Assembly (NCBI GenBank): GCA_947483545.1
Contig: CANKNP010000030.1
Span: 1-23,290, forward strand
DNA: 23,290 bases
Reading direction: 5' to 3'
DNA from: Deltaproteobacteria bacterium
Lineage (GTDB): Bacteria; Myxococcota; UBA796; SXON01
Every line of letters starts with the position of its first letter. The first letter of the stretch is position 1. The position numbers and the translations under genes are program-made. A model generated the notes under the pieces. It made no database searches and was not told the origin of the DNA. It was given only the letters and a program-made list of their open reading frames with translations. Below, piece after piece: positions 2 through 21,775 of the stretch.

Positions 2-193
2 AGCGCGGACAGCGAGGACACCGGGGTGCGCTCCGACACGTCGAAGGATCTCGTGGCTGAAAAGAGCTGCGGATGTGGGACGGGGGCGGGGGGGCCGGGG
101 TGGTTGGGGCTCGTGATCGGGTTGGTTTGGGGGGGGAGGAGGCGCCTCAAGCCCCCCCCAAAACCCCCCCATCCCCCAAATCCACGACCATGA
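2..193 (+). CDS. C-terminal end of an exported protein with MYXO-CTERM-like sorting tail (partial)
   Basis: Open frame entering from the left edge and ending at TGA 191-193. The visible 63 residues begin with a polar Ser/Asp-rich stretch. A Cys-Gly-Cys-Gly motif (KSCGCGTG) follows at about residues 22-28, then a hydrophobic segment (PGWLGLVIGLVWGG) and three arginines. Cysteine pair, membrane segment and Arg cluster in that order are the hallmark of MYXO-CTERM tails, which in Myxococcota mark exported proteins for surface sorting. About 15 Pro-rich residues follow the Arg cluster. That is longer than usual, and a run of eight G at 129-136 could hide a small frameshift that would end the gene earlier. 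The 3' end overlaps the convergent bpX gene by 47 bp. The upstream domain, and therefore the function, is outside the window. Confidence 0.62.
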   Translation, partial: SADSEDTGVRSDTSKDLVAEKSCGCGTGAGGPGWLGLVIGLVWGGRRRLKPPPKPPHPPNPRP

Positions 194-2834
194 CCCTGCC
201 CCGGTCGTCGCCCAGCGTGACGGTGTCCACCCCGATCTGCACGCAGAGCCGCTGGGCGCTTGGGAAGATCACCCGGGCGATCAGCCGCTCCCGGCGTAGG
301 ACCGCCATCATCGCCCCGGCAGACTGAAACGTGTGGACCTGGCAGGCTCCGAACGCGTGCTGTTCGAGCAGCCGGAAGGGCACCCCCGGGGCGGAGCCCA
401 TCCCCAGCGTGATGCCCACCGCCTCTCCCCGCACGGGGTGTCGCTTCAGGTGGACGACGAAAGTAATGTCCTTGGCTGTGCCGTCCTCGGCGGTCACCAC
501 GGTCCCGTCGGCCAACAGGATGGCGTGGGGCCCGACCACGGTTTCGTGCCGCCCAACCGCCTGAAGATCTGCGCCGCGCAACACCCAACGCTCGCCCGCC
601 ACCCCGCCGGTTTGAAGCGCGACGGTCTTCCCATCCCGGACGATGGCGTGGATCCCCGACAGCCGAGGGCGCTCACCACCCTCCGACTGTGCGCCTGGAA
701 GTACCGTTTTCCACAGCGCGCGCGGCTCCTTCAATTTTGGGCCAGCATCCCAGACTTGCAGGACGTCCAGCGCGATCAGCGTCAAATCATCGCCGACGAG
801 CCAGCGGTTGCCGTCGCAGCGGGGCTCCCAGACGGTGTAGGTGGCGTCGTGCCAGGGGGTGTCGGTGCCCGCCCGGGTGTCGATCCCGCGGAGTCGAACC
901 CCCCGGCGGCTGCGTGCCAGCGCGATCACCCGCGCGGTGCCTTCGATGGGGATCAGGTGATGGCACGGCTCGGGAAAGCGGGCGAGGACCTTGCCATCGC
1001 GACCGTGGACCACGGTTCCCAGCTCCCCGAAGGCGACCACCAGCGTGCCATCGGCCAAGAAGGTCGCGTCGTAAATGGGGGCGTTGCTGAACCCACCGGT
1101 GACGTGGGTGGGCACCTCACGCTGGGGGAGCGGCGTCGCGGCGGTGTCCACGGCGGGGGAGTCGGCCCGGAACGCGGGCTCGGAGACGCCCTGCGATTGC
1201 CCCCGGAGCCAGGCCGCGCCGACCAGATCGGGGCGCGTCGCGTGATCGAGCAGGAGCTGGCGCACCACCGGAAGGAGGAGCCTGCGGCCGTGCGCGCCGC
1301 CCGCCTCCCCCAAGCCCTCCGCCACGGCGAGGCGGATCCGCACCGCTTCGGGCCCGACACCGCGGCAGACCGCCTCGACCCGAGGTTGGACCAAGGCCCA
1401 GGTCTCCGGGGTCTGGCGAAGGAGGAGCGCGAGCAGCCGGGCGCCCGCGGGGGTCTGGCTGCTGATCGCGGCGTCCAGCCACGGGACCGCCATGGGCCGA
1501 AGCGTCGGCTCGGACCAGGCGAAGGTCGCGGCCGCGGCCATGTCCCCGCGTTCGGCGAGGTGCTGCGCCCACGCCCAACGGAGTCCGATGGCGCGGGGCT
1601 TGTCGACCGCCTCCAGGGCCAGCAGCACCGCCGTGATGGGCCCGGTGCGGCGCGCGAGGTGGACCGCCTCTTCCATCCTCCCCGCGAGGGTCCACAGGGC
1701 GATCGCGCGATCGGGCGGGAGCCGGCCCTCGGCGATCTGTGCGGCGGACGCAAAGCGCCCGGCACCCTCCAGGAGCTTGACCGCACGCTCGTAGTCGCCG
1801 AGCAGCTCGGCCAGCACGAACACCGCGTCGTCCAGTCGGCCCTCCGCGATCAGCCGCTGCACAGCCTCATGGTAGAGCTCGCGGAGCTGACTGAACACGT
1901 CGGTGGTGATGCCGATGCTGGTCCGCGGGGCGCTGCCGGCAGGTCGGACCTGCAACGCCTCCCGCGGGCGGGGCAGACCCCACGTCGCCTCGCCGCCCCC
2001 GGTGCCCGTGCCCAGCGGGATGGCCCACTTCAGCGCTTCGTCGATCTTACCGGCGTTGAACGAGTCGAGCAGGTTCATCAGGTGACCGCCGTGGACCGCG
2101 CCCATCAGCCGGGCCTGGAGCGGCGCGAGCAGGCGATCCAGGGCTTTTCGCCACGAGGATACGGGAGCGGGCTGGGTTGTTGGCACGAGCGCGTTGGCCG
2201 CAGCACCGCCCGCAGCACCACCGGCCGCCACGCCTCGACCCGCCGGTCCTCCAGGCCCCCGGGCCGCTGCCGGCGCCCGTCCCAGACCGCCGAGCCACTG
2301 TGCCGCCGCCGAGATCCCCCGCTTCCAAGCGGGCAGCGCAGCGGGGTTGGAGAGAGAGACCTGCAGGAGCGCGGCAGAGGGCATCGGCGGGGCACGCCGC
2401 AGGACGGTCCGAAGTTGGACCGGCTCCGATGCGCGCGGAGGCAAAGGCGGCGGGCCCAACGGCTCCGCGAGGGGCGGGTCGAAGGGCGGCAGGGGAAGCA
2501 ACGCCGCGAGATCCAAGTGCGGAAGCTGCGCAATCACCGCCGTCACCCGCCTGCCTTGCCACGCCAGCAGGACCTCCCCGGCCCTGGCTGTCGCGCCCTC
2601 GATCCCCACCAGCCCGCCGTTCCGAACCAGCGGCATTCCGGGCGTCTCCGCGAGGCCTTCGCGGTCGAGCACGACCAACCATCCGCCTTCCAGCTGCCGA
2701 ACCTCCGTCCCCGGCGTCCAACGCGCCAGCACCTGGCCGAGCGGATCGACCGACCCGGGCGGCAACCAGTACGCCGCTGCCCGCACAGCGCCGCGCAGGA
2801 GCATCGGCGGTCGCGGGTCCGCGAGCCGGGTCAC
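147..2834 (-). CDS. bpX-domain / helical-repeat / beta-propeller component of a MoxR-vWA-bpX ternary system
   Basis: 895-aa protein, apparently cytoplasmic (no signal peptide). Residues 1-150 resemble the bpX-type N-terminal region (motif RGAVRAAAYWLPPG, followed by GGWLVVL). Residues about 160-260 are a Pro/Ala/Gly-rich linker. Residues about 270-580 form an alpha-helical repeat region that reads like TPR (DEALKWAIPLG; RLDDAVFVLAELLGDYERAV). Residues about 600-895 are a run of beta-strand/turn units of propeller type (DATFLADGTLVVAFGELGTV; LADGTVVTAEDG). In these systems a MoxR ATPase and a vWA protein work with such a third component; the target is not known. I chose GTG 2834 because it forms a GTGA overlap with the stop of the upstream vWA gene. 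The ATG at 2882 would need a 52-bp overlap. It is the last gene of the minus-strand operon inside the window. The bpX name is from memory of the family; the domain order is read directly. Confidence 0.72.
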   Translation of the reverse strand: MTRLADPRPPMLLRGAVRAAAYWLPPGSVDPLGQVLARWTPGTEVRQLEGGWLVVLDREGLAETPGMPLVRNGGLVGIEGATARAGEVLLAWQGRRVTAVIAQLPHLDLAALLPLPPFDPPLAEPLGPPPLPPRASEPVQLRTVLRRAPPMPSAALLQVSLSNPAALPAWKRGISAAAQWLGGLGRAPAAARGPGGPAGRGVAAGGAAGGAAANALVPTTQPAPVSSWRKALDRLLAPLQARLMGAVHGGHLMNLLDSFNAGKIDEALKWAIPLGTGTGGGEATWGLPRPREALQVRPAGSAPRTSIGITTDVFSQLRELYHEAVQRLIAEGRLDDAVFVLAELLGDYERAVKLLEGAGRFASAAQIAEGRLPPDRAIALWTLAGRMEEAVHLARRTGPITAVLLALEAVDKPRAIGLRWAWAQHLAERGDMAAAATFAWSEPTLRPMAVPWLDAAISSQTPAGARLLALLLRQTPETWALVQPRVEAVCRGVGPEAVRIRLAVAEGLGEAGGAHGRRLLLPVVRQLLLDHATRPDLVGAAWLRGQSQGVSEPAFRADSPAVDTAATPLPQREVPTHVTGGFSNAPIYDATFLADGTLVVAFGELGTVVHGRDGKVLARFPEPCHHLIPIEGTARVIALARSRRGVRLRGIDTRAGTDTPWHDATYTVWEPRCDGNRWLVGDDLTLIALDVLQVWDAGPKLKEPRALWKTVLPGAQSEGGERPRLSGIHAIVRDGKTVALQTGGVAGERWVLRGADLQAVGRHETVVGPHAILLADGTVVTAEDGTAKDITFVVHLKRHPVRGEAVGITLGMGSAPGVPFRLLEQHAFGACQVHTFQSAGAMMAVLRRERLIARVIFPSAQRLCVQIGVDTVTLGDDRGRVMVVDLGDGGVLGGA

Positions 2835-4612
2835 GTCGCCACCTCCCGCAACATGACGGGCTCGCCGCGCTTCACGTCCCACACCTCCACGGTGTTCTCC
2901 AACGTATGAAAGCCGACAAACTGCAGATCGGCGGAGGCGGTAGGGCGGATCGGCCGCCGCGGGACCTCAAAACCGATCAGCCCCTGGTCCAATGCGAACC
3001 CAACGCCGCCGCGGGACCACTTGAGCGTCGTCGTGCTCCACGTCCTTGGCTCCCAGTCGTACGTCCGTCGGATGCCGAGGATCTCCCAGCGTTCGTCGGC
3101 CTCCAGGAGCTCGACGGGCACCTGGGTGAGGGGCCGCCGCAGGCTCCAGACGTCGCGCTCTTGGAGTAGGACATCCGGCTCGATCTGGCCCGCTTGCAGC
3201 CAGAACGACCCCCGCGAAGCCCCCGGAAAGCCTGCGGCAACATCGATCTTGCCGCCGGGCAGGAGGCGCAGCACCCGAAACCCGTCCCCCGAGCGCTCCA
3301 GAGCCAGCGGGCCCTGCGGGGTGGGCGCGAGGTCGATGACCCCGGCTCGTGGGGCGCCCGAGGGCCAGGCCCCGCCGCCGCAAAGGGTCAGGGCATCCCG
3401 TTGCAGGTGCCAGAGTGCTTCGTTCGCGTCGGTGAACCAGACCTCGTTCGCATAGGCGATGGCGCGGCCGAAGCCGAGCGGTGGCGGGCTTTCGCCGGCG
3501 GAGACCGCGTGCGAGAGAGCGCGAGGTGCGGAGCTGGACACCCGCCCGCCGTCCAAGGCCACCGGCAGGAACCCCTGGTGATGCCAGCCCATCGCAACTC
3601 GGTTGGCCGGTTGGGCGATCTTGGCCTTGGGCACCGCCCGCCTGGGCACGTTCGCGAAGCTCCACGCCAGCACATGCCGCGATTGGAAAGCGCACATGAA
3701 CTGGGCGGTGCCGTGTACGAACCGCGTCTCCAGCGGGCCCGCGACGCCCTCCGGAAACGCCCGCCACTCGGGCGACTTACGCGGTGCCAGCGGGGTCGGG
3801 CGATGGGCCGGGCGGGGAGCGGCGGTGACCGGTCGAGACGCGAAGGGGGTCAGCAGAAGCTTGCTGCGAAGCGGGGGCGCGGGGAGGGGGAGGACCGCCT
3901 CGGAAGGGCGAGCCCCGGGGCGGTGGACGGTCGCGAGGATCGCGTCGGTGTCCGGGCCGATGAGGTCGGTCAGTGTCAGCCAATGGCCCGCTCTTGCGCC
4001 TCCGGTGCGCCCGCCGTCAGGGGCGGAAGGCGCCGGGCCGATCACCCAGGTCTCGTCGGCCGGCGGCTCTCCCGAAAGATCTGGCAGCACGAACGGGTCG
4101 TGGCACCGCGAAGCGAGCAGGCCACGCAGGCTCGGCTCGTCCACGGTCTCGAACACCGCCTGGGGGCGCTGCGCGACGGACCAGGTCATCGTCGCCTTCG
4201 CCAACTGCGCGCGGCGATGCAGCACAATCAGCGCGGCGATGTGCACCAACCGCGGACCGCCAAGCTGGCTCGGACCCGCGTCCAACACGACCCGAACGTG
4301 CAGCCCACCCGAAGGCTTGCGTGTTTCAAGCTGATAAAACGCATGTTCGCCCGCGACGGCCCGGCGCACGAACTCATCCGGAGCCTCGTCCAGGAGCGCC
4401 CACTCCGACAGCAGCAGGCGATCGTAGGGCCCCCGGCGCACCAACCCCCGAAAACCGTCCGGCTCCCCGCCGCGCTCGGTGTCCCGCGGACGTAATTGCC
4501 CGATCAACCTGTCCAGTCGCCCCGCCATCTGCGCGACGTCCGGCCGCAGATCCTCCGCCAGCAACGCCAACGGCTCGGCCCAGACCTTCAACGCGGTCGG
4601 CAACACGGTCAT
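2831..4612 (-). CDS. vWA-like protein with C-terminal propeller-like region (ternary system component)
   Basis: 593-aa protein. The N-terminal 100 residues are helical. Around residues 64-78 there is RLLLSEWALLDEAPDE, followed by strand-helix-strand units containing VRVVLDAGPSQLGG (residues 107-118) and LVHIAALIVLHRRA. This is the layout of the vWA protein in MoxR-vWA-bpX systems. The DAGPS (Asp111, Gly113, Ser115) sits where a normal vWA has the metal-binding DxSxS, so the MIDAS site looks degenerate. Residues about 270-590 carry repeated strand-turn units with Trp-containing ends and are probably a beta-propeller. The start ATG overlaps the stop of the small upstream gene (ATGA) and the stop overlaps the GTG of the downstream gene, so all three are probably translationally coupled. 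The vWA assignment is by pattern and family memory; structure prediction would settle it. Confidence 0.68.
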   Translation of the reverse strand: MTVLPTALKVWAEPLALLAEDLRPDVAQMAGRLDRLIGQLRPRDTERGGEPDGFRGLVRRGPYDRLLLSEWALLDEAPDEFVRRAVAGEHAFYQLETRKPSGGLHVRVVLDAGPSQLGGPRLVHIAALIVLHRRAQLAKATMTWSVAQRPQAVFETVDEPSLRGLLASRCHDPFVLPDLSGEPPADETWVIGPAPSAPDGGRTGGARAGHWLTLTDLIGPDTDAILATVHRPGARPSEAVLPLPAPPLRSKLLLTPFASRPVTAAPRPAHRPTPLAPRKSPEWRAFPEGVAGPLETRFVHGTAQFMCAFQSRHVLAWSFANVPRRAVPKAKIAQPANRVAMGWHHQGFLPVALDGGRVSSSAPRALSHAVSAGESPPPLGFGRAIAYANEVWFTDANEALWHLQRDALTLCGGGAWPSGAPRAGVIDLAPTPQGPLALERSGDGFRVLRLLPGGKIDVAAGFPGASRGSFWLQAGQIEPDVLLQERDVWSLRRPLTQVPVELLEADERWEILGIRRTYDWEPRTWSTTTLKWSRGGVGFALDQGLIGFEVPRRPIRPTASADLQFVGFHTLENTVEVWDVKRGEPVMLREVAT

Positions 4613-5109
4613 CCGGGTGCTCGGAGGCGGGCGCGGGCGGCGGTGAGCTCAGCGCGGCCCAAAGGTCGGGCATCTCCGAGGGAAATCACCGCATCGGGCG
4701 GGCTTGGCGCCACCCCGCTCCGGTCCGCCCCCGCCGTGAAACGCCCGTGCACATCCCCCGGGAGAAAGGCCGCCGGCCAGTCGCACCCCGGCGCCCGCAG
4801 CCGAATGGCCCGCGCCACCAGATCGATCGGCAAACTCGGACGGATCGCCGTGGGAAAGAGCACCGCGGGGGCGTCTGGGTGGCGGCCCAGGTAGACCACG
4901 CCCTCGGCCCAGGGCAGCGCATCGGCGGGGCCGAGCAGTACGACCCATTGTCCGGCGATCACACCGGTCAAAGGCTCCAAGCTGGCACGGGTGAGCACGC
5001 GGTCGAGCAGCCGAACGGCCGCGTCTCCGTGGGCGGCGACCGCGCAGGGGGTCAGCGGGGCGTCCGCGGGGAGCCAGGGGGACCGTGACGGGGACGGGGG
5101 GCGGGCCAT
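4609..5109 (-). CDS. Small bpX-like protein, first gene of the ternary-system operon
   Basis: 166-aa protein with no signal peptide or membrane segment. It has strand-rich motifs GQWVVLLGPADALPWAEGVV and VYLGRHPDAPAVLFPTAIRP, then a segment with Asp/Trp/Phe positions (GCDWPAAFLPGD). I do not recognise a catalytic site. Its place, four bases overlapping the vWA gene, and the hydrophobic LLGP..LPWAEGVVYLG pattern suggest one of the small bpX domains that accompany MoxR-vWA systems. The ATG at 5109 is the only reasonable start in frame; no strong Shine-Dalgarno precedes it. It faces the plus-strand cassette across a 208-bp divergent intergenic region containing a palindrome. Function is inferred from neighbours only. 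Confidence 0.6.
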   Translation of the reverse strand: MARPPSPSRSPWLPADAPLTPCAVAAHGDAAVRLLDRVLTRASLEPLTGVIAGQWVVLLGPADALPWAEGVVYLGRHPDAPAVLFPTAIRPSLPIDLVARAIRLRAPGCDWPAAFLPGDVHGRFTAGADRSGVAPSPPDAVISLGDARPLGRAELTAARARLRAPG

Positions 5110-5204
5110 CTGGCCCGTGGGGTAACGCAGGGCGTGGGAGGGTCACGTGGTATGGTCGTACGTGCCCGCTGTGTGCCAACGTGGAAGCTGAGATCCGGCG
5201 CAAA

Positions 5205-5230
5205 ACTTTCTTCGGGGGGACGAAGAAAGT
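5205..5230. promoter_or_regulatory. Perfect 10-bp inverted repeat, candidate operator
   Basis: ACTTTCTTCG (5205-5214) and its exact complement CGAAGAAAGT (5221-5230) are separated by GGGGGA. It lies in the divergent region between the bpX operon and the plus-strand cassette and ends two bases before a TTGACA box. That position fits a repressor or activator site acting on the cassette promoter. An RNA hairpin made by a transcript from further upstream is the alternative. Confidence 0.5.
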
Positions 5231-5232
5231 GC

Positions 5233-5262
5233 TTGACACCCCCCCCACCCCTGTGCGTTAGC
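5233..5262 (+). promoter_or_regulatory. Probable promoter of the 5318-7616 cassette
   Basis: A consensus -35 box TTGACA (5233-5238) is followed, after a C-rich spacer of 17-18 bp, by CGTTAGC (5256-5262) as a weak -10. The start codon of the first gene is 56 bp further on, preceded by AAGGAG. The -35 is clear; the -10 is a poor match. Confidence 0.5.
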
Positions 5263-5317
5263 GTGAGACCACTGCCCGGTCAGTTCCGAGCTTGGCAGGT
5301 TCAAGGAGTCTCATCGC

Positions 5318-5650
5318 ATGTCCTCTCAGTACGTACGCCAGTTGCCGGCCTCGGCGCTCCCCGTCACCTTCAAGCAAGCCGACAACCAAGTGACAGACTT
5401 CGGCGCCTTCCGGGTGCTGGAGGTCTACTTCAAGATCTTCAAGGCCGGGCCCTCGCAGGGCAGCCTCTTTCTTTCGCACAACGCAACGATGGACCCCGAC
5501 AATTGGAAGGCGATCGCGGGCGCCTCGATCGCTCAGAACGGGACCGACTCCTTCGTGACCGTGAACGACTTCCTCCGGTACGTCAGGGTGGAGGGCACCG
5601 CCGGGGATGGCACGGGCGTGGGAATGGTAGACATCGTGGCGAAGGAGTAG
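5318..5650 (+). CDS. Small probable beta-sandwich protein of unknown function
   Basis: 110-aa acidic/polar protein with alternating hydrophobic pattern (FRVLEVYFKIFKAG; SLFLSHNATMDPDNWKAIAG; SFVTVNDFLRYVRVEG), which reads as a single all-beta domain. No cysteines, signal peptide or membrane segment. AAGGAG lies nine bases before the ATG, and a TTGACA-type promoter lies upstream, so this is a well-formed first gene of a unit. The next gene starts 8 bp after its stop. The lengths and strand pattern resemble the 119-aa protein at 14533-14892, though with little obvious identity. Possible roles are a binding domain, a structural subunit or a secreted accessory of the following putative metalloprotease; none can be shown from sequence. 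Confidence 0.75.
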   Translation: MSSQYVRQLPASALPVTFKQADNQVTDFGAFRVLEVYFKIFKAGPSQGSLFLSHNATMDPDNWKAIAGASIAQNGTDSFVTVNDFLRYVRVEGTAGDGTGVGMVDIVAKE

Positions 5651-5658
5651 GGAAACCC

Positions 5659-7380
5659 GTGGCTGGCTGTGGTTGCGAGGGCGGTGTTCCTTGTGGATGC
5701 AAGCCCGCAGCGAGGGTGTCAGGACCGGCCGCGGGTGGGGGGTCCGGCGCTGCACGGTTCGCCGGGATGTTGGCGCTCCGGAAGGCCGGCGAAGCACGCC
5801 CCAAGAAGGCGGCGCCCCCGCCGGGTACCCGGGCGGCCGGCGGGCGCGTGCTGGCGGCGGAGGCACCGCACGGGACCCCCCCCGGCCGCGGGGGCAAAAT
5901 CTCGCCTCCTTCAGCCTCCTGCGGCGTCGGATTCGACGCTACCGGGCTCTCCCAGCCTCCACCGGGGACGCCCAGGCCGGCACCCAACCCCGCGGCATCG
6001 GGCGCAAAGATGCTTCCGGGATTTGCGTTCGCGCCGGGCGGTCAGGGGCCCGCGCTGGAGGCCGCTATCGCCCAGCTCCGCAAGGCGACGCTGCTTCGGC
6101 CGGGCCGCGGGCCCGACGCGTTGCGGCCCGGATCGGACAGCCTTTCTCCAGGGAATCGGGAGGCGATCGACGGGATCTTTGGAAACCGCCACACGTTCTC
6201 CTACCGGGACCAGACGTTCTACGTGGAGGAGGGCTGGCTGGTCGATTATCTGATCGACTGGATCGATGTTCGTGAGGGCGACGACACTGCGTCCACGGAT
6301 CTCGTCTCGTCCATCGAAACGACACTGGATCTGCTCTGGCAGCCGTTCCGCAGTGCGGCCACCGGCTCGTTCACCGAATTCCATGAACGCCTGGGCTGTT
6401 ACGACCTGCCACGCGACGACTGGCCTGACCAGCCGGTGTTCTACTTCTGGAACAACGGCTGGAAGGCGCCACACAAGTTCTTCCTTTACACCTGCCAGTT
6501 GATTCACACCTATTCGGACGAGATCTCCGGCACCACCACCTGCGAGGGTTTGGGTGATTTCGTCCGGGATGCGCTGGTGGGGGATGTACTTCGCAGGAAG
6601 AACCCGAGCGTGTTCCGGCAACCGAAGAACAACGAGTGTTCGCTGACGATCAACTTTCGCGGCGGGGAGAAATTCGACCGTCTTCATGATGCGTGCTCGG
6701 GAAATACGAAGTGCGGGGTTTTCGATAATTCTCTTGGGACCACGGGTCGGGCGTGGAGTGAGCTGGATCTGGACTGGGTCGACGATGACGAATGCTGGAG
6801 CGGACGGCCCACCGATATTTGCGAGGGCCCAAGAATCAAGGCGGAAAACTTCGCAATCGCTGGCGACTTCAGCGCGACGTTTCACCCGATTTCCCTCGTG
6901 TTTTACGGCCAGGTGAGCGACTACATCCTGTTTCTGTCGCGCATCTGCCTGGATTACGCGCTGTACAGACTCAGCGAGGGAGCGACGCTTGGGGAGTTCT
7001 TTGGGTACTTTGATACCGCAACAAAGCTCGCTCGATATCCCCTGCGCATGATGGCTGCGCTCGGCAGGTACATCATCCACGAGATCGGGCACACCTGGCT
7101 GGAGACGGGCCATTGCGAGTGGGATTGCTGCTTCGACTCCGAGGCGCTCCGCTGGCAATGCGCGGTGCGCGCCAAGCTCGGTCTACCGCGGTTCGAGCAG
7201 GGCCCGCGATCCTCGGGGGATTACGACAACGCAGATGGGCTCGACCAAGAGGACTGCAACAATTGTGGCAACGACACCGAGACGTTCATGACCAGTTGCA
7301 GCATCTCGACGGAGGGTGAGGTGGGCGCAGACTGGGCGTTTGGGGCGAGTGGCTGTTGGGAGGAGGATCCGCGATGTTGA
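5659..7380 (+). CDS. Putative zincin-type metalloprotease with Cys-rich N-terminus
   Basis: 573-aa protein. Residues 1-16 contain a four-cysteine pattern (MAGCGCEGGVPCGCKP). Residues about 18-125 are a Pro/Gly/Ala-rich, probably disordered linker. From about 135 to 573 the protein is folded, rich in aromatic residues and cysteines. The motif HEIGHTWLETGH (His474, Glu475, His478, possible third ligand His485) is an HExxH zinc-protease signature. The spacing to the third His is one residue longer than in metzincins, so the clan is uncertain. A Cys cluster (HCEWDCC, DCNNC) follows. GTG 5659 is preferred: AAGGAG and AGGGA lie just upstream, it follows the previous stop by 8 bp, and it keeps the Cys motif. 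Third bases and overall composition from about 6160 onward look less GC-rich than the flanking genes, a possible sign of transfer. No classical signal peptide; the export route, if any, is unknown. Confidence 0.68.
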   Translation: MAGCGCEGGVPCGCKPAARVSGPAAGGGSGAARFAGMLALRKAGEARPKKAAPPPGTRAAGGRVLAAEAPHGTPPGRGGKISPPSASCGVGFDATGLSQPPPGTPRPAPNPAASGAKMLPGFAFAPGGQGPALEAAIAQLRKATLLRPGRGPDALRPGSDSLSPGNREAIDGIFGNRHTFSYRDQTFYVEEGWLVDYLIDWIDVREGDDTASTDLVSSIETTLDLLWQPFRSAATGSFTEFHERLGCYDLPRDDWPDQPVFYFWNNGWKAPHKFFLYTCQLIHTYSDEISGTTTCEGLGDFVRDALVGDVLRRKNPSVFRQPKNNECSLTINFRGGEKFDRLHDACSGNTKCGVFDNSLGTTGRAWSELDLDWVDDDECWSGRPTDICEGPRIKAENFAIAGDFSATFHPISLVFYGQVSDYILFLSRICLDYALYRLSEGATLGEFFGYFDTATKLARYPLRMMAALGRYIIHEIGHTWLETGHCEWDCCFDSEALRWQCAVRAKLGLPRFEQGPRSSGDYDNADGLDQEDCNNCGNDTETFMTSCSISTEGEVGADWAFGASGCWEEDPRC

Positions 7381-7616
7381 TGCTGCTCTGGCTCGGGTGC
7401 CCGGAACGAGTGGAGCTGTGCGACCCCCCACCACTCGTCTGCAACGCTGGGCGGAACGAGGACTTCGATGCATGCGATGCATGTGGGGTCGTTTGGAACT
7501 GCTACAATAGCTATCCCGATTGGGAGCCCCGTTGGATCCGTACTGGCTGGGATTGCGAATGCATCAACGACGAGGGCCATGTGGATACGGACGAGCTTTG
7601 TAGTTGGGGCTACTGA
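7374..7616 (+). CDS. Small Cys-rich probable lipoprotein
   Basis: 80-aa protein. The very short N-terminus MLMLLWLGC ends in a lipobox-like LWLGC, so lipidation at Cys9 is possible, although the n-region lacks positive charge. Nine cysteines (9, 16, 23, 34, 37, 43, 61, 63, 76) and many Trp/Tyr residues suggest a small disulfide-stabilised extracytoplasmic domain. The ATG overlaps the end of the metalloprotease gene by 7 bp and has GGAGGAGG seven bases upstream, which argues for the ATG over the TTG at 7356. Coupled translation with the protease gene suggests they act together, for example as inhibitor, anchor or partner. That role is inference from context. Confidence 0.62.
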   Translation: MLMLLWLGCPERVELCDPPPLVCNAGRNEDFDACDACGVVWNCYNSYPDWEPRWIRTGWDCECINDEGHVDTDELCSWGY

Positions 7617-7620
7617 TGGT

Positions 7621-7635
7621 GCCGTGTCGCACGGC
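7621..7635. terminator. Hairpin between convergent genes, candidate bidirectional terminator
   Basis: GCCGTG-TCG-CACGGC forms a perfect 6-bp stem in the 27 bp between the stop of the Cys-rich lipoprotein gene and the stop of moxR. No T-tract follows on either strand, so termination is only suggested. Confidence 0.35.
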
Positions 7636-7643
7636 GGGGCTAA

Positions 7644-8777
7644 TCACCCCCCCAAAACCACCCGCACCCGCTCCCGCACCTCCCGCAGCGCCACCGGCAG
7701 CGAAGCAGGCGAGAAGCACGCATCGATCTCGCGTCCGATGCCCTCCACCCGTCGGGTCCAGCCGTCCAGCGTGACCGGGTCTGCGCCCTCCGGTCGCGCC
7801 CTCATGACCGTCTCGGCGGCCTCGGCGATCCGCGCGGCGCGGGCCAACGGTCCCCCAGAAGCCTCGGCCGCGGCGCCCCGCAGCGTGGCGTTCTCGCTCC
7901 GGGAGAGCAGCGGGGCGAGCTCCTCGCGGGCCAGCGTCTGGTTTGCAGCGGTCGGCACCGCATAGACCAGCGGCCACAAGTCGGCTGGGCCCGCCACCGT
8001 CCGCCCGTCGAGCAGCGCGGCGGCCGCGATCAGCCGCTGCGACCGCACCACCCGCCGATCGGGTAGCACCACGCCGGCCTTTCGCAGCGTCCGCACGGCG
8101 TGCGCCAGCAGCGGTCTCGCGGCCTCTAAATCCACGTTGCGAAGCTGGGCCGACAAGCTGTCGAGCGCCGCCATCGCCCCGGGGACCGGCTCCGGCGGCG
8201 GGCCTTGCACCCCCCACCCCTCAGCCAGGAGCTGCTCCAAGAACGGATCGCCCACTGGCTCGACGAACGCGCGCACGAGAAAACGGTCTGCGAACGCGGC
8301 AAGCGACTCGTCGTCGGGGAGCGCGTTGCTGGCCCCTACGGCCACGCGAAGGGGAACAGCGCGGACGGTGTGGCCGCGTCGAAAGACCCGCTCGTTCAAC
8401 ACCCCGAGCAGGGTGTTCAGGATCGCGGTCGAACCGAGGAAAACCTCATCGAGGAAGGCGATCTCGGCCTCGGGCAACATGCCTGTGGTCTCGACCTCCA
8501 CCGCACCCTCGCGCAGCCGCCGCAGATCGATGGGCCCGAAGATCTCATTCGGCTCGGTGAACCTGCCCAGCAGGTATTCAAAGGTCCGGCCGCCGAGGGC
8601 CCGGGCGACCCGGCGCGCGGCCTCAGACTTCGCGGTGCCGGGGGGACCGATCACCAGGACGTGCTCGCCGGCCACCGCCGCCAACACGATGGCCTCGACG
8701 AGCGTCTCGCGCTCGACCAAGCCGCGCCGGGCGGAGAGGATCGCGGCGTTGAGGGTGGCGACGGGGGTGGGGAGCAT
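7644..8777 (-). CDS. MoxR-family AAA+ ATPase
   Basis: 377 aa. The AAA+ core shows Walker A GPPGTAKS (residues 44-51), Walker B IAFLDE (106-111) followed by the MoxR-typical FLGSTAILNTLLGVLNER, sensor-1 region VGASNALPDD (148-156) and the AFADRFLVR segment (161-169). The C-terminal lid runs to about 285, with an Ala/Arg-rich helical tail after it. MoxR ATPases remodel or load cofactors onto partner proteins, commonly with a vWA protein. Here the matching vWA and bpX genes lie on the same strand at 4612-147, but separated by the plus-strand cassette. The gene starts 35 bp downstream of a lipoprotein gene and probably shares its transcript with thyX. No gene symbol is given because MoxR subfamilies differ in role. 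Confidence 0.92.
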   Translation of the reverse strand: MLPTPVATLNAAILSARRGLVERETLVEAIVLAAVAGEHVLVIGPPGTAKSEAARRVARALGGRTFEYLLGRFTEPNEIFGPIDLRRLREGAVEVETTGMLPEAEIAFLDEVFLGSTAILNTLLGVLNERVFRRGHTVRAVPLRVAVGASNALPDDESLAAFADRFLVRAFVEPVGDPFLEQLLAEGWGVQGPPPEPVPGAMAALDSLSAQLRNVDLEAARPLLAHAVRTLRKAGVVLPDRRVVRSQRLIAAAALLDGRTVAGPADLWPLVYAVPTAANQTLAREELAPLLSRSENATLRGAAAEASGGPLARAARIAEAAETVMRARPEGADPVTLDGWTRRVEGIGREIDACFSPASLPVALREVRERVRVVLGG

Positions 8778-13375: not shown

Positions 13376-14293
13376 CTACACCAGTTCTTCCGCCGAGAGG
13401 ACCGTCACGGCCTGCCCGATCCATCGGTCAAGCGTCTCACCGTCCAAGCAAGCGCGGATGCGCCGCCGTGCCGCCTCGTCCACGGCGATTCCCCGCGCCT
13501 GCAGGAAAGTGAGGATCGCCTCCGCTTTACCCTCGGCTTTACCCTCGGCTTTGCCCCTGGCCTCCCCCCTGGCCTCCCCCTCCTCCGCCAACTCCCGCGC
13601 CTGCACGATTTCGGCCGCGACCTGCTCATACGCATCCTGCTCGATGTCGGTGAAGGTGGCCCAGTTGGCCAGCTCGACGGCCCTCCGATGGGGCCCCTTC
13701 GGGAGCTCTGCGGGAATTCGCGTGAGCCGTTTGGCATGCGCGAACAGCCAGGCCCACAGCGCGCTCCCGCCACCGGGCCGCTCGCCACCCAGCTTCGGCA
13801 GCTCCAGGAACGCATACTGAACCTGGCGGAGGCCAGAGCTGCCGGTGCTCCTCTCGGTCAGGTTCCAACGGCTGAGCATCGGCACCCGGGGCTGGCCCAT
13901 CGCATCGCGCTCCGCATCGGGCCAAAGGCAGAAGTCACAGATGGAGATCGCGAAGACATCCTTCAGCGAGCCGTATTCCCCCGTCTCCTTGAGTTGGCCA
14001 ACATAGGCCTTGCACGCATTGTAGACGACCCGGTTCTCGAACCCCTTCGTGTGCAACAACTGCATTTCGACGATGAACGTATGACCCGCCTGGTCGGTGC
14101 ATCGAATGTCCAGGATCGAGAGCTTGGCGCCGTCCGCGATGGGCAACTGCTCCGATGGGAGGTACTGGATCCGGGTGATGACCTCATCGCCGACCCGTTC
14201 CAGCAAGTCGTTCAACAACGCGATCAGCAACGGAGGGTGCTTCGCGAAGATCCGCCGGAAGACGAAGTCGTTCTTGAGGTCTGCGAACTTCAT
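13376..14293 (-). CDS. Rpn / PDDEXK_2-family nuclease
   Basis: 305 aa. The N-terminus MKFADLKNDFVFRRIFAKHP is characteristic of the Rpn/PDDEXK_2 family of recombination-promoting nucleases. The restriction-endonuclease-like core is visible as LSILDIRCTD (Asp) followed by TFIVEMQLL (Glu-x-Gln), then the GFENRVVYNACKAYVGQL segment. Residues about 236-257 are a tandem Gly-Glu/Lys-Ala linker encoded by five 12-bp repeats, which in this family varies in length between relatives. The last 45 residues form a small helical domain. No Shine-Dalgarno precedes ATG 14293. The gene is convergent with the aminotransferase and divergent from the small genes at 14533-15373. Such genes are mobile and often multi-copy, so this marks a likely accessory stretch. 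Confidence 0.9.
   Translation of the reverse strand: MKFADLKNDFVFRRIFAKHPPLLIALLNDLLERVGDEVITRIQYLPSEQLPIADGAKLSILDIRCTDQAGHTFIVEMQLLHTKGFENRVVYNACKAYVGQLKETGEYGSLKDVFAISICDFCLWPDAERDAMGQPRVPMLSRWNLTERSTGSSGLRQVQYAFLELPKLGGERPGGGSALWAWLFAHAKRLTRIPAELPKGPHRRAVELANWATFTDIEQDAYEQVAAEIVQARELAEEGEARGEARGKAEGKAEGKAEAILTFLQARGIAVDEAARRRIRACLDGETLDRWIGQAVTVLSAEELV
13524..13583. repeat. Five 12-bp tandem repeats inside the Rpn gene
   Basis: Units begin at 13524, 13536, 13548, 13560 and 13572. The first two are identical (GCTTTACCCTCG) and the last three drift from it. On the coding strand they give repeated Gly-Lys/Glu-Ala-Glu/Arg units. Because 12 is a multiple of three, copy-number change would alter linker length without breaking the frame. 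Confidence 0.85.
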
Positions 14294-14532: not shown

Positions 14533-14892
14533 ATGTCGCTCATCAACCAGCTCCCCGAAGTCAGCACCGCGGTCAGCGGCAACACGACAACCTACGTCTA
14601 CTATTGGCTGACCGGCTGGATCCCGTGCATCGCGATGAACGCGGCGATGGCGACGTTGAAGCTTCGGAACTGCGGCGGAAACGTGCGGATCTTGCCCGTG
14701 CTCCAGTTCGCCGAAGTCCGCACGGACAAGCCCAGCGCGGTGACGACCCTGGCCGGCTTCACCGCCCTCAGCGCAGATGACGAGTACACGATCACGGCGA
14801 CGAACTACGGGATCGGTACGCTCGCCCCCGGCAACACAAACTTCAATATGAGCACGTGTGAGAACATGTGCGCAGCGGTCTACAGTGACTGA
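14533..14892 (+). CDS. Small probable beta-sandwich protein of unknown function
   Basis: 119 aa (MSLINQLPEVSTAVSG start). Alternating hydrophobic/polar residues (AAMATLKLRNCGGNVRILPV; DDEYTITATNYGIG) suggest a single all-beta domain. Four cysteines occur, two of them close to the C-terminus (STCENMCAAVYSD). It has no signal peptide. No strong Shine-Dalgarno is seen before ATG 14533; an open frame continues upstream through the hexamer tract but without a convincing earlier start. The next gene starts inside its last codons, so the two are coupled. Size, predicted fold and head-of-unit position resemble the 110-aa gene at 5318. Function not recognised. Confidence 0.68.
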   Translation: MSLINQLPEVSTAVSGNTTTYVYYWLTGWIPCIAMNAAMATLKLRNCGGNVRILPVLQFAEVRTDKPSAVTTLAGFTALSADDEYTITATNYGIGTLAPGNTNFNMSTCENMCAAVYSD

Positions 14893-15373
14893 CCCCACGG
14901 ATCGCGTCGGGAGGCGACTTTACAAGGACCCCAACACCGGGGAGGAGGTCGTCGTCGAAATCGACCGCCCCGTCCATGTCTCGCCTCGCATCGTCTCGGA
15001 CCCGCCCGTGGACCCAGACGGTGTCGGCTGCCCGCCAACCCATGGCTACTGGACGGTTGCATACCGCGTCCGGAGGGACGACCAGATCCAGTCTTTCCTG
15101 ACGGACGGGGCGGACTCCTTGGGCGCTCTCTTCTCCGCGCTCGTGGAGCTGGCGCACATCGTCGAATCTGAGCGGCTCGTCGGCCTGTGGGTGTTTCCGC
15201 ATATGTGGCTCAGAGCTGTCGGCCGGAGGCACGCGGATTGCCCGCACTACGGAGAGGGGCCTTGCACGGCCCCCGCCACAGCGACCTCCGCCGGGGCGAA
15301 GCGTCCGCGCAAGGCCCGAGCAAAACCCGCGACCCCGGACGACAAGCCGACCGGGAGACGGAATAGCGGCTGA
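14885..15373 (+). CDS. Protein of unknown function, intact copy of a tandem pair
   Basis: 162 aa. The core AYRVRRDDQIQSFLTDGADS (residues about 59-78), LFSALVELAHIVESERL, and VFPHMWLRAVGRRHADCP reads as a compact mixed alpha/beta domain. The C-terminal 35 residues are basic, Pro/Ala-rich and probably disordered (KRPRKARAKP). The GTG start overlaps the end of the upstream gene by 8 bp. The reading frame is supported by a second, degraded copy at about 15823-16140 that keeps the same core with roughly 60 percent identical residues by eye. No catalytic motif is evident and I do not recognise the family. Confidence 0.68.
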   Translation: MTDPTDRVGRRLYKDPNTGEEVVVEIDRPVHVSPRIVSDPPVDPDGVGCPPTHGYWTVAYRVRRDDQIQSFLTDGADSLGALFSALVELAHIVESERLVGLWVFPHMWLRAVGRRHADCPHYGEGPCTAPATATSAGAKRPRKARAKPATPDDKPTGRRNSG

Positions 15374-15405
15374 TCGGCGCACGCCCGTCAGCCACAGGCT
15401 GGCCG

Positions 15406-16140
15406 ATGATCACGCCACACGCTTCACGATCACAGACAGAACATCGCCGCCGCCGCCGGCGGAGCGAGGTGGTGACGACGCCGGGGCGCGCATCACCTGG
15501 TCGTCACTCCGGGGCTGGCTCGACGGATGGCGCGACATCTACCGGCGGCAGACCGCCGCAAAGCGGTACGAGGCCCTGAGCGCGCACCTTGGCCTGCTCA
15601 CCGAGGCGCACGTCGAGCAGGCCGACCTGCCCGAGCTCGACGAGCTGGAGCGCGTGCTGCTCGACGGGCACAACGTGCTGCCGCCGAGGGGGAAGCCCGA
15701 GGGGCATCCCACCACGCAGCTCCGGACGCCATCGACCGGACGCGGACTCCGTACCGTGTCGCGGACGCCTCCCCCGAGGAGCCGGATGCCTGGGCCGCGG
15801 GCATCCTCAGTGCGCCCCCGCCGCGGATGGCGGGACGACCATTGCATATCGGGTTCGGAGGGCCGAAACCGTCCAGTCGTTTCTGACCGACGGGCCGGAC
15901 TCCCTGGGCGTGCTGTTCAGGGCGCTGTCGGAGGTGGAGGACATCGTCACGTCCCAACGGTTCCTCGGCCTGCCCGTGTTCCCGCATTCATGGCTCAGAG
16001 AGGTCGGCCGAATGCACATGGATTGTCCGCCCGGCCCTTGCGCCGGCGTGGGCGGGCAAGCCGCACCGCCCGGGGCGGTCCTGACTGGCGACCTTGATCG
16101 ACAGGAGGCGCCCGGATGCACGCTTCCCGGCCGGAGGTAG
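15406..16140 (+). pseudogene. Frame-broken second copy plus an unidentified fragment
   Basis: Coding-like sequence runs in three different frames. About 15420-15710 (frame of 15420) encodes a fragment with WSSLRGWLDGWRDIYRRQ and LPELDELERVLLDGHN; no start codon is found in this frame before about 15654. About 15715-15835 (shifted frame) encodes DAIDRTRTPYRVADASPEEP. From about 15823 to the TAG at 16138-16140 a third frame encodes AYRVRRAETVQSFLTDGPDS, VFPHSWLREVGRMHMDCP, clearly homologous to the 162-aa protein just upstream. The breaks fall near G/C-rich runs (around 15685-15720 and 15810-15835), so assembly or read errors are an alternative to true decay. Confidence 0.6.
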
Positions 16141-20794: not shown

Positions 20795-21775
20795 CTAGGC
20801 CAGCAGGTCCTTCACCGTCTCCCGCTCGTTCAACAGCTCCTGGGTCGTCGCCGCGATCTTCGCCTTGGCGAAGTCGTCGAGGTGGAGCCCCTCGACCACC
20901 TTGAAGTTCCCTCCGGCCGACGTGACGGGGAAGCTGAAGATCAAGCCCTTGGGCACATCGTATTGCCCCTCGGACCACACACCCATCGAGGTGAAATCGC
21001 CAAGCGCGCTGCCGTGCCAGAGCGTGGACATGTGGTCGATGGCGGCGGCGGCGGCCGATGCGGCGGAGCTGGCGCCTCGGGCCTCGATGATCGCCTTGCC
21101 GCGGGTCGCGACGGTCTTGAGAAAATCGCCTTCGAGCCAGTCGCGACCGACCTGATCGGTGACCAGCTCGCCGCGGACTTTGGCGTTCGCGAAGTCAGGG
21201 TACATCGTGTCGGAGTGGTTGCCCCAGATGCCGAGGTTTGTGACCTCGCCGGGGAGCGCGTTGAGCTTCTTCGCGAGCTGGGCCTTGGCGCGGTTCTCGT
21301 CGAGCCGGGTCATCGCGTGGAAGCGGTCCTTTGGGATGCCAGGGGCCGAGTGCGCCGCGATCAGCGCGTTGGTATTGCAGGGGTTGCCGACCACGATCAC
21401 GCGGATGTCGTCCGCCGCGTTGTCGTTCAGCGCGCGGCCCTGGCCGGTGAAGATGGGGCCGTTCGCGGAGATGAGATCCGCCCGGTTCATGTCCTTCGTG
21501 CGCGGGCGCGAGCCAACCAGAAAGGCCTGGTTGATGCCTGAGAAGGCGATGTTCGGATCGTCCGAGATCTCGACGCCGTGCAGCAGCGGGAACGCCGAGT
21601 CGAGCAGCTCCATCACAACGCCCTCAAGCGCTTTCATGCCGGGCGCGATCTCGAGCAACTGCAGGATGATGGGCTGGTCTTTTCCGTAGCACTCACCCGA
21701 GGCGAGGCGGAACAGCAATGCGTAGCCAATGTTGCCGGCGGCGCCGGTGACTGAGACACGGATGGGAAGGGGCAT
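20795..21775 (-). CDS. mdh: Malate dehydrogenase (NAD-dependent, cytosolic-type)
   Basis: 326 aa. The Rossmann motif [17 protein letters not shown] starts at residue 11. The acidic residue at the end of the second strand (LLEI, Glu42) favours NAD over NADP. Further MDH markers are [10 protein letters not shown] (128-137), the catalytic Asp/Arg stretch TRLDENRA (156-163) and catalytic His187 in [12 protein letters not shown]. The sequence is of the longer 'cytosolic/chloroplast-like' MDH group rather than the LDH-like group. It interconverts malate and oxaloacetate in the TCA cycle. ATG 21775 is chosen because CGGAG lies seven bases upstream and residue 2 leads straight into the first strand. 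The open frame continues to 22039 without good reason. It is divergent from the YARHG lipoprotein gene. Confidence 0.97.

Follow-up and report, generated by a model that had tools for sequence, protein, structure and literature searches.

A 23,290-nucleotide stretch of DNA from a Deltaproteobacteria bacterium (contig CANKNP010000030.1, positions 1 to 23,290; hereafter the window) probably carries two unrelated systems superimposed on each other, namely a MoxR-vWA-beta-propeller ternary system and an independent, multi-copy three-gene module that lies at the junction between MoxR and bpX5. The ternary core is of an already described kind, and the module is without a family name in the libraries searched.

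Ternary-system genes of the window

The four genes of the ternary system all lie on the minus strand. The AAA+ ATPase gene at 7644-8777 (377 aa) matched the Pfam family bpMoxR (PF20030, 1.4e-82), and the 166-aa protein at 4609-5109, which an earlier note made from the DNA letters had described as small and bpX-like, matched bpX5 (PF19921, 2.7e-20) with 72.9 bits against a cut-off of 27. The third component at 147-2882 (911 aa) has an N-terminal bpX6 domain of borderline strength (PF19922, 7.8e-6), its 26.3 bits being slightly below the cut-off of 27. The earlier note had read this protein as bpX, helical and propeller parts; the first of these is supported at the border, and the helical middle and C-terminal propeller are predictions. 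The second component (2831-4612, 593 aa) occupies the vWA position and had no Pfam match. The first three genes are coupled, as shown by their overlaps of 52 bp (147-2882 and 2831-4612) and 4 bp (2831-4612 and 4609-5109). As the earlier note had it, these three coupled genes share their strand with a MoxR gene from which they are parted by 2.5 kb of opposite-strand DNA, and this interval (5110-7643) holds three plus-strand genes, referred to below as the cassette. GC3 was 0.81-0.87 in the four ternary genes and 0.88, 0.76, and 0.69 in cassette genes 1-3, a coding bias that is consistent with seven real genes, four ternary and three cassette.

A P-loop variant, GXXXTAKS, is reported as frequent in MoxR-vWA-beta-propeller systems in the available text of the paper describing them (eLife 2020;9:e52696, PMC7159879), and the P-loop of 7644-8777, GPPGTAKS, fits this variant. 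NCBIfam and PADLOC gave only general AAA+ matches for 7644-8777, the best of which was a RavA model (1.4e-48; 166 bits, far under its cut-off of 681). RavA-ViaA of E. coli consists of a MoxR AAA+ protein plus a vWA protein. The window likewise encodes a MoxR-family ATPase, but has bpX partners instead. Judged from profiles and gene order, the window appears to hold a complete bpX5/bpX6-type MoxR-vWA-beta-propeller ternary system, with bpX6 at the border and the vWA fold excepted. It shares bpMoxR, bpX5, a borderline bpX6, and a conserved neighbourhood with the known systems, whereas it differs from them in that vWA is undetected by profile and MoxR is split off by an antiparallel cassette.

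Relatives of 2831-4612 were abundant, with 76 besides the protein itself at E <= 1e-3 among 7996 candidates scored. Alignment A1 of the second component contains 16 of the 77 proteins, and alignment A2 covers 24 of 55 loci. The N-terminal ~260 residues are strongly conserved in alignments of relatives, and a FDAGPxQLG motif occupies the place of the vWA DxSxS loop. At the C-terminus, a WD-like last blade was visible by eye in A1, which would fit a C-terminal propeller. Pfam vWA profiles matched neither 2831-4612 nor any of the 24 homologues scanned. HHalign comparison of the family with 13 vWA domains, which had been selected from five genomes by a motif close to VWA_2 matches, paired the same strand with a probability of 0.5%, and a profile search of the PDB with the family yielded no solved structure below E 2. 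Since the vWA domains of these systems are termed divergent in the available text of the same paper (eLife 2020;9:e52696, PMC7159879), position and gene order support the vWA identity of 2831-4612, although they do not prove it. Hence, the reading of this protein as vWA-like plus propeller in the earlier note fits in position and order, with the propeller represented by a blade seen by eye and the vWA domain recovered by no sequence method. The assignment of the locus to the ternary systems is upheld by the MoxR and bpX5 profiles, by bpX6 at borderline, and by gene order, and the profile search that the note had proposed left 2831-4612 without a match.

The MoxR-bpX5 junction in other genomes

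A one-genome-per-species scan with alignment A1 gave 54 related loci. In these loci, searched with the window proteins and then with profiles made from their matches, the order MoxR-bpX5-vWA-bpX6 was present as far as the contigs reach. The gap between the MoxR and bpX5 profile matches was at most 70 bp in 48 of the 52 loci with both genes (window included), and the four exceptions were L005 (281 bp), the window (2543 bp), and two Archangium loci (3.3 kb). The distance from bpX5 to the vWA-position gene was at most 370 bp in every locus. Extra DNA ahead of bpX6 was found only in three Massilia loci (L026, L027, and L052), where the vWA-position gene is duplicated and at least two such genes lie between bpX5 and bpX6. 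Families beyond the four ternary genes were each shared by 10 of the 55 loci at most, and conserved neighbours of the operon were confined to small related groups, besides one family present at mixed places in 10 loci. The three cassette proteins had no match in the first 54 related loci.

The protein encoded at 20795-21760, which we take to be malate dehydrogenase, showed 90% identity to G004 (L002), 77% to G005 (L003), and 74% to G003 (L001). L003 belongs to a MAG labelled Klebsiella pneumoniae that groups in the class of G004, and the label is probably wrong. In this class, which is that of the window, bpX5 was detected in 13 of 71 genomes, and MoxR directly adjoins bpX5 in all 13 loci (L001-L003, L051, L053, and L197-L204). 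Because of this arrangement in the class, the insertion in the window is most likely a derived state. The comparison of gene order in relatives, suggested in the earlier note, thus confirmed that the neighbourhood is conserved with MoxR in other genomes and that the cassette is absent at this junction in the 13 class loci.

Interrupted junctions are frequent in Archangium's phylum, where 64 of 195 genomes have bpX5. The survey covered 60 regions together with L004 and L006, and G024 and G118, with matches at contig ends, were left out; 60 of these 62 rows carry both genes, duplicates of earlier loci being counted once. The MoxR-bpX5 gap exceeded 600 bp in 20 of the 60 loci, and its median in the remainder was 100 bp. 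Taken over all 115 loci with both genes, 21 had a gap above 600 bp, the window included, and outside Archangium's phylum the window was alone in this respect (1 of 55; 0 of 54 others). A further genome (L139/L205) has ~12 kb of varied genes between MoxR and bpX5. Since the separation of MoxR is also seen in 20 of 60 loci of Archangium's phylum, it does not disqualify the window's MoxR from membership in the ternary system. These loci also bear on the possibility that the split arose by misassembly or in a chimera. Many module copies lie near contig ends, as is typical of repeated sequences, but both borders of the cassette fall between genes, with open reading frames to either side, and the same junction is interrupted in those 20 loci of another phylum, some of them on chromosome-sized contigs. 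An artefact is therefore very improbable.

The cargo of the occupied junctions is varied. L004 and L006, both from Archangium, carry a toxin-like gene plus TsiV immunity (1.8e-39 and 9.3e-43), and PADLOC identified the L006 cargo as PDC-M20; L085, and partly L096, have by look the same kind of cargo. Pfam matches in the L109 cargo were DUF2169, ketoacyl synthase, and Tox-PAAR-like. Six junctions contain DUF2381 plus a lipoprotein (Pfam tested in L086), eight contain an AHSA1 gene, mostly alongside others (Pfam tested in L120; an EVE plus NOV_C protein by Pfam in L119), and L115 contains one 227-aa gene. EVE/NOV_C proteins are often located near restriction genes. This variety indicates that the MoxR-bpX5 junction is a permissive slot with changing cargo, sometimes with conflict genes and mostly without them. 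A general link between ternary systems and T6SS is not claimed, as only 5 of the 20 occupied slots point that way (Pfam-tested in L004, L006, and L109). In the available text of PMC7159879, no description of insertions or slot behaviour at this junction was found. Because MoxR is parted from the other genes both here and in one third of the Archangium-phylum loci measured, the ternary parts can probably be made separately, and the junction may tolerate insertions since co-transcription of MoxR with its partners would be dispensable.

Cassette genes and their copies elsewhere

A divergent intergenic region (5110-5317, no strand) separates bpX5 from the cassette, all three genes of which are on the plus strand. 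Gene 1 (5318-5650) encodes a conserved 110-aa protein (P0083). Gene 2 (5659-7380) encodes a protein of 573 aa with a Cys-Gly head, AGCGCEGGVPCGC, and a C-terminal zincin-like HExxH domain, in which a putative zinc site, HEIGHTWLETGHC, is encoded at 7078-7116. Gene 3 (7374-7616), the start of which overlaps the gene-2 stop, encodes a Cys-rich protein of 80 aa that begins with a few hydrophobic residues ahead of Cys9 and appears lipoprotein-like by eye. No toxin or delivery domains were detected in genes 1-3 by Pfam, NCBIfam, PADLOC, or PHROGs. A protein search with gene 2 returned no relative at E 1e-3, a silence that is weak evidence because the query itself was also unlisted; all members found of the gene-2 family come from genomes close to that of the window. 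The gene 3 sequence matched only three loci (L192, 1.1e-5; L193, 7e-5; L185, 1.9e-4), and a small Cys-rich third gene overlaps or follows gene 2 in many copies by eye.

Gene 1 has three relatives in the protein database with 60-64% identity, and a profile was built from these and the window copy. The profile search detected the gene-1 family in 16 of the 71 class genomes at 36 places, with 1-5 copies per genome. In the wider phylum of G004, 14 of 282 sampled genomes had the family; 13 of these are class genomes counted above, and the remaining one had a weak match (1.2e-5). The family was found in none of the 195 genomes of Archangium's phylum, in a search without internal positive control, and viral contigs, plasmids, and phages likewise yielded no match. 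Gene-1 relatives matched DUF6385 weakly in 6 of 32 cases (best 7e-4), and the family had no relative with a solved structure. In total there are 37 copies including the window, 36 of them with a match reaching the gene-1 start, and alignment A5 comprises 32 of the 36 (L188, L208, L214, and L220 left out). Gene 1 appears broken in L178 and L188.

A second frame starts -30 to +60 nt from the gene-1 stop in 33 of the 36 copies. At least four cysteines are present in its first 60 residues in 29 of these 33 copies, as in MACGCQAPTGCGCG and VAGCGCGGSCGSPSCGQG, and HExxH is present in 24; contig ends truncate 5 of the 33. The HExxH domains were aligned (A6) using rows picked by HE.[GA]H, of which 22 of 23 were kept and L220 was left out. 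H202 (the third His) and D138 in a preceding stretch are shared by all 22 rows, and at least 90% of the rows have the next Cys. Gene 2 may bind zinc, and its putative zincin fold rests on a motif. Pfam zincin profiles gave nothing above cut-off on gene-2 relatives (Reprolysin_5 at 0.023 in 1 of 10). Against the PDB, the best match of the HExxH profile was a rhamnosidase, a non-peptidase (E 0.063), and peptidase matches had E values of 0.2-1.8 (archaemetzincin 0.2, VgrG2b effector domain 1.8). In the L179 copy, a beta-lactamase-type domain (PF00144, 2e-27) replaces HExxH. Gene 2 therefore appears, as read from these alignments, to combine a constant Cys-rich head with an exchangeable catalytic tail, mostly zincin-like and once beta-lactamase-type. 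In L177, which comes from the genome of L003 and is the closest genome relative of the window cassette, gene 2 is interrupted and HExxH is located in a separate downstream frame. The Cys-Gly head of L177 gene 2 resembles the thiopeptide-type bacteriocin precursor PF19409 at residues 15-36 (0.0035), but this match is under the cut-off (17.5 vs 23.5 bits) and occurs in one of four proteins scanned, and the remainder of the protein is enzyme-like.

Ternary genes were found beside none of the 36 module copies elsewhere (flanks at most ~5 kb). The module and bpX5 co-occur in five genomes of the class, out of 16 and 13 of the 71, respectively, which is not significant (P 0.13). The earlier note had left open whether the inserted genes were cargo, effectors, or an unrelated insertion. 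Since the module occurs without the ternary system, and the ternary system without the module in the class, an unrelated recurring module is favoured, and a cargo or effector of the ternary system is disfavoured. According to the latter reading, the cassette would be a dedicated effector or cargo and the MoxR-bpX5 junction an effector slot controlled or deployed by the machine. This would agree with the available text of PMC7159879, according to which conventional effector modules are lacking in the published beta-propeller systems, and with the T6SS-type cargo at the same junction elsewhere (toxin-like plus TsiV in the two Archangium loci, DUF2169/Tox-PAAR-like in L109). However, most occupied junctions have no clear effector character (DUF2381, AHSA1, lipoproteins, and the varied genes of L205), the junction is empty in 13 of 13 class loci, and the module stands alone elsewhere with the above co-occurrence value of P 0.13, so that we regard an effector slot as unlikely. 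The cassette is similar to the T6SS effector/immunity pairs found at the same junction in other species (TsiV; Tox-PAAR-like plus DUF2169) in having a catalytic protein and a coupled downstream gene, but its genes match none of these families and the VgrG2b domain is reached only at E 1.8.

Upstream repeats and a model for the module

Homopolymer, CT/AG, and 6-15-nt tandem repeats were seen upstream of gene 1 (e.g. L186, L192, L181, L215, and L217), and the repeat units vary between copies. The repeat thresholds were fixed after viewing the first 21 copies, and 16 later copies were tested with the function unchanged. In the first set, repeats were present in 13 of 19 copies, with L178 and L188 left out as broken, or in 13 of 20 with profile-set starts, where L188 was included and L178 had no start match; among the controls, 34 of 620 windows taken from these loci and 4 of 36 regions preceding other genes were positive. 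The held-out copies had repeats in 11 of 16 cases compared with 18 of 341 control windows (P 4.6e-10), although such P values overstate independence because the copies are related. When pooled, 24 of 36 copies were positive compared with 55 of 1004 control windows, and stricter thresholds (9 or more) gave 22 of 36 and 13 of 1004, respectively. The repeats lie mostly 30-150 bp ahead of gene 1, and their frequency is ~12 times the background in these loci. An integron or a shared promoter was also considered and rejected, as the upstream regions have by eye no common motif, only differing repeats.

The tract of the window itself is a C8 run on the plus strand (5239-5246), followed by A and then by C4 up to 5251. 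It is directly preceded by TTGACA at 5233-5238, and a promoter scan at this tract found no complete sigma-70-like site. This candidate phase-variation tract passes the first thresholds and is too short for the stricter ones. A perfect inverted repeat (5205-5230) with 10-nt arms at 5205-5214 and 5221-5230 lies between bpX5 and gene 1 and is a possible operator. Because of the repeat enrichment upstream of gene 1, we infer that the module is likely to be phase-variable, the window's own tract being weak in this regard. The porA gene of Neisseria is a phase-variable contingency locus with a repeat tract in its promoter. The module likewise has homopolymers or short tandem repeats just ahead of its first gene and forms a multi-copy family, but differs from promoter contingency loci in the many types of repeat unit within one family and in being known here from sequence alone.

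The position of the repeats is also relevant to whether the cassette is an ordinary cluster for a secreted enzyme, used for example in acquiring nutrients, with the repeats reflecting local sequence instability. The catalytic domains do resemble hydrolases, and genes 1-3 of the window match no toxin family. Nevertheless, instability would hardly account for repeats of many units placed mostly 30-150 bp before gene 1 at ~12 times background, and digestion would need neither a conserved partner nor a coupled lipoprotein-like gene. We therefore give such a cluster a small chance, and continue with the two superimposed systems as the preferred explanation.

In the ternary system, MoxR would use ATP to remodel the vWA-position protein, as in the published model, and the latter would be held to the bpX6 protein via their propellers, so that remodelling would switch a sensor/effector complex. 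In the window, MoxR is probably transcribed separately from the other three genes, and a module copy would have inserted in antiparallel orientation at the MoxR-bpX5 junction. At replication, the repeat tracts ahead of gene 1 would gain or lose length and thereby turn the module on or off. The gene-2 enzyme would most likely be extracytoplasmic and serve in surface modification or in attack on neighbours, and the lipoprotein-like gene 3 product may protect or anchor as its envelope partner; export of the enzyme and the parts played by genes 1 and 3 are predictions of this model. A head that stays constant, a tail that can be swapped, and a small coupled gene together suggest a toxin/immunity role. 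Surface modification or digestion stays possible because no known toxin or delivery domain is present in genes 1-3 of the window. We tentatively extend the model, with less confidence than in the two-system explanation itself, to a phase-variable, domain-swapping effector/immunity system of one bacterial class, composed of a carrier/assembly protein, a Cys-Gly-addressed enzyme, and an immunity/anchor lipoprotein, together with a MoxR-bpX5 junction that serves as a landing site for conflict modules in separate lineages.

In the open-licence literature, neither an experimental study of ternary systems nor an account of the module was found, the latter being weak evidence since the module is nameless, and the term bpMoxR gave no paper. 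VMAP systems near CRISPR are the subject of PMC10910872, according to its available text. The module makes phase variation, together with enzyme-based conflict or surface change, testable in scarcely studied bacteria.

Elsewhere in the window, the plus-strand frames at 14858-15373 and 15589-16140 encode stretches that are similar by eye, indicating a local duplication, and a gene of the PDDEXK_2 transposase family lies near these duplicated frames (14858-16140), at 13376-14293.
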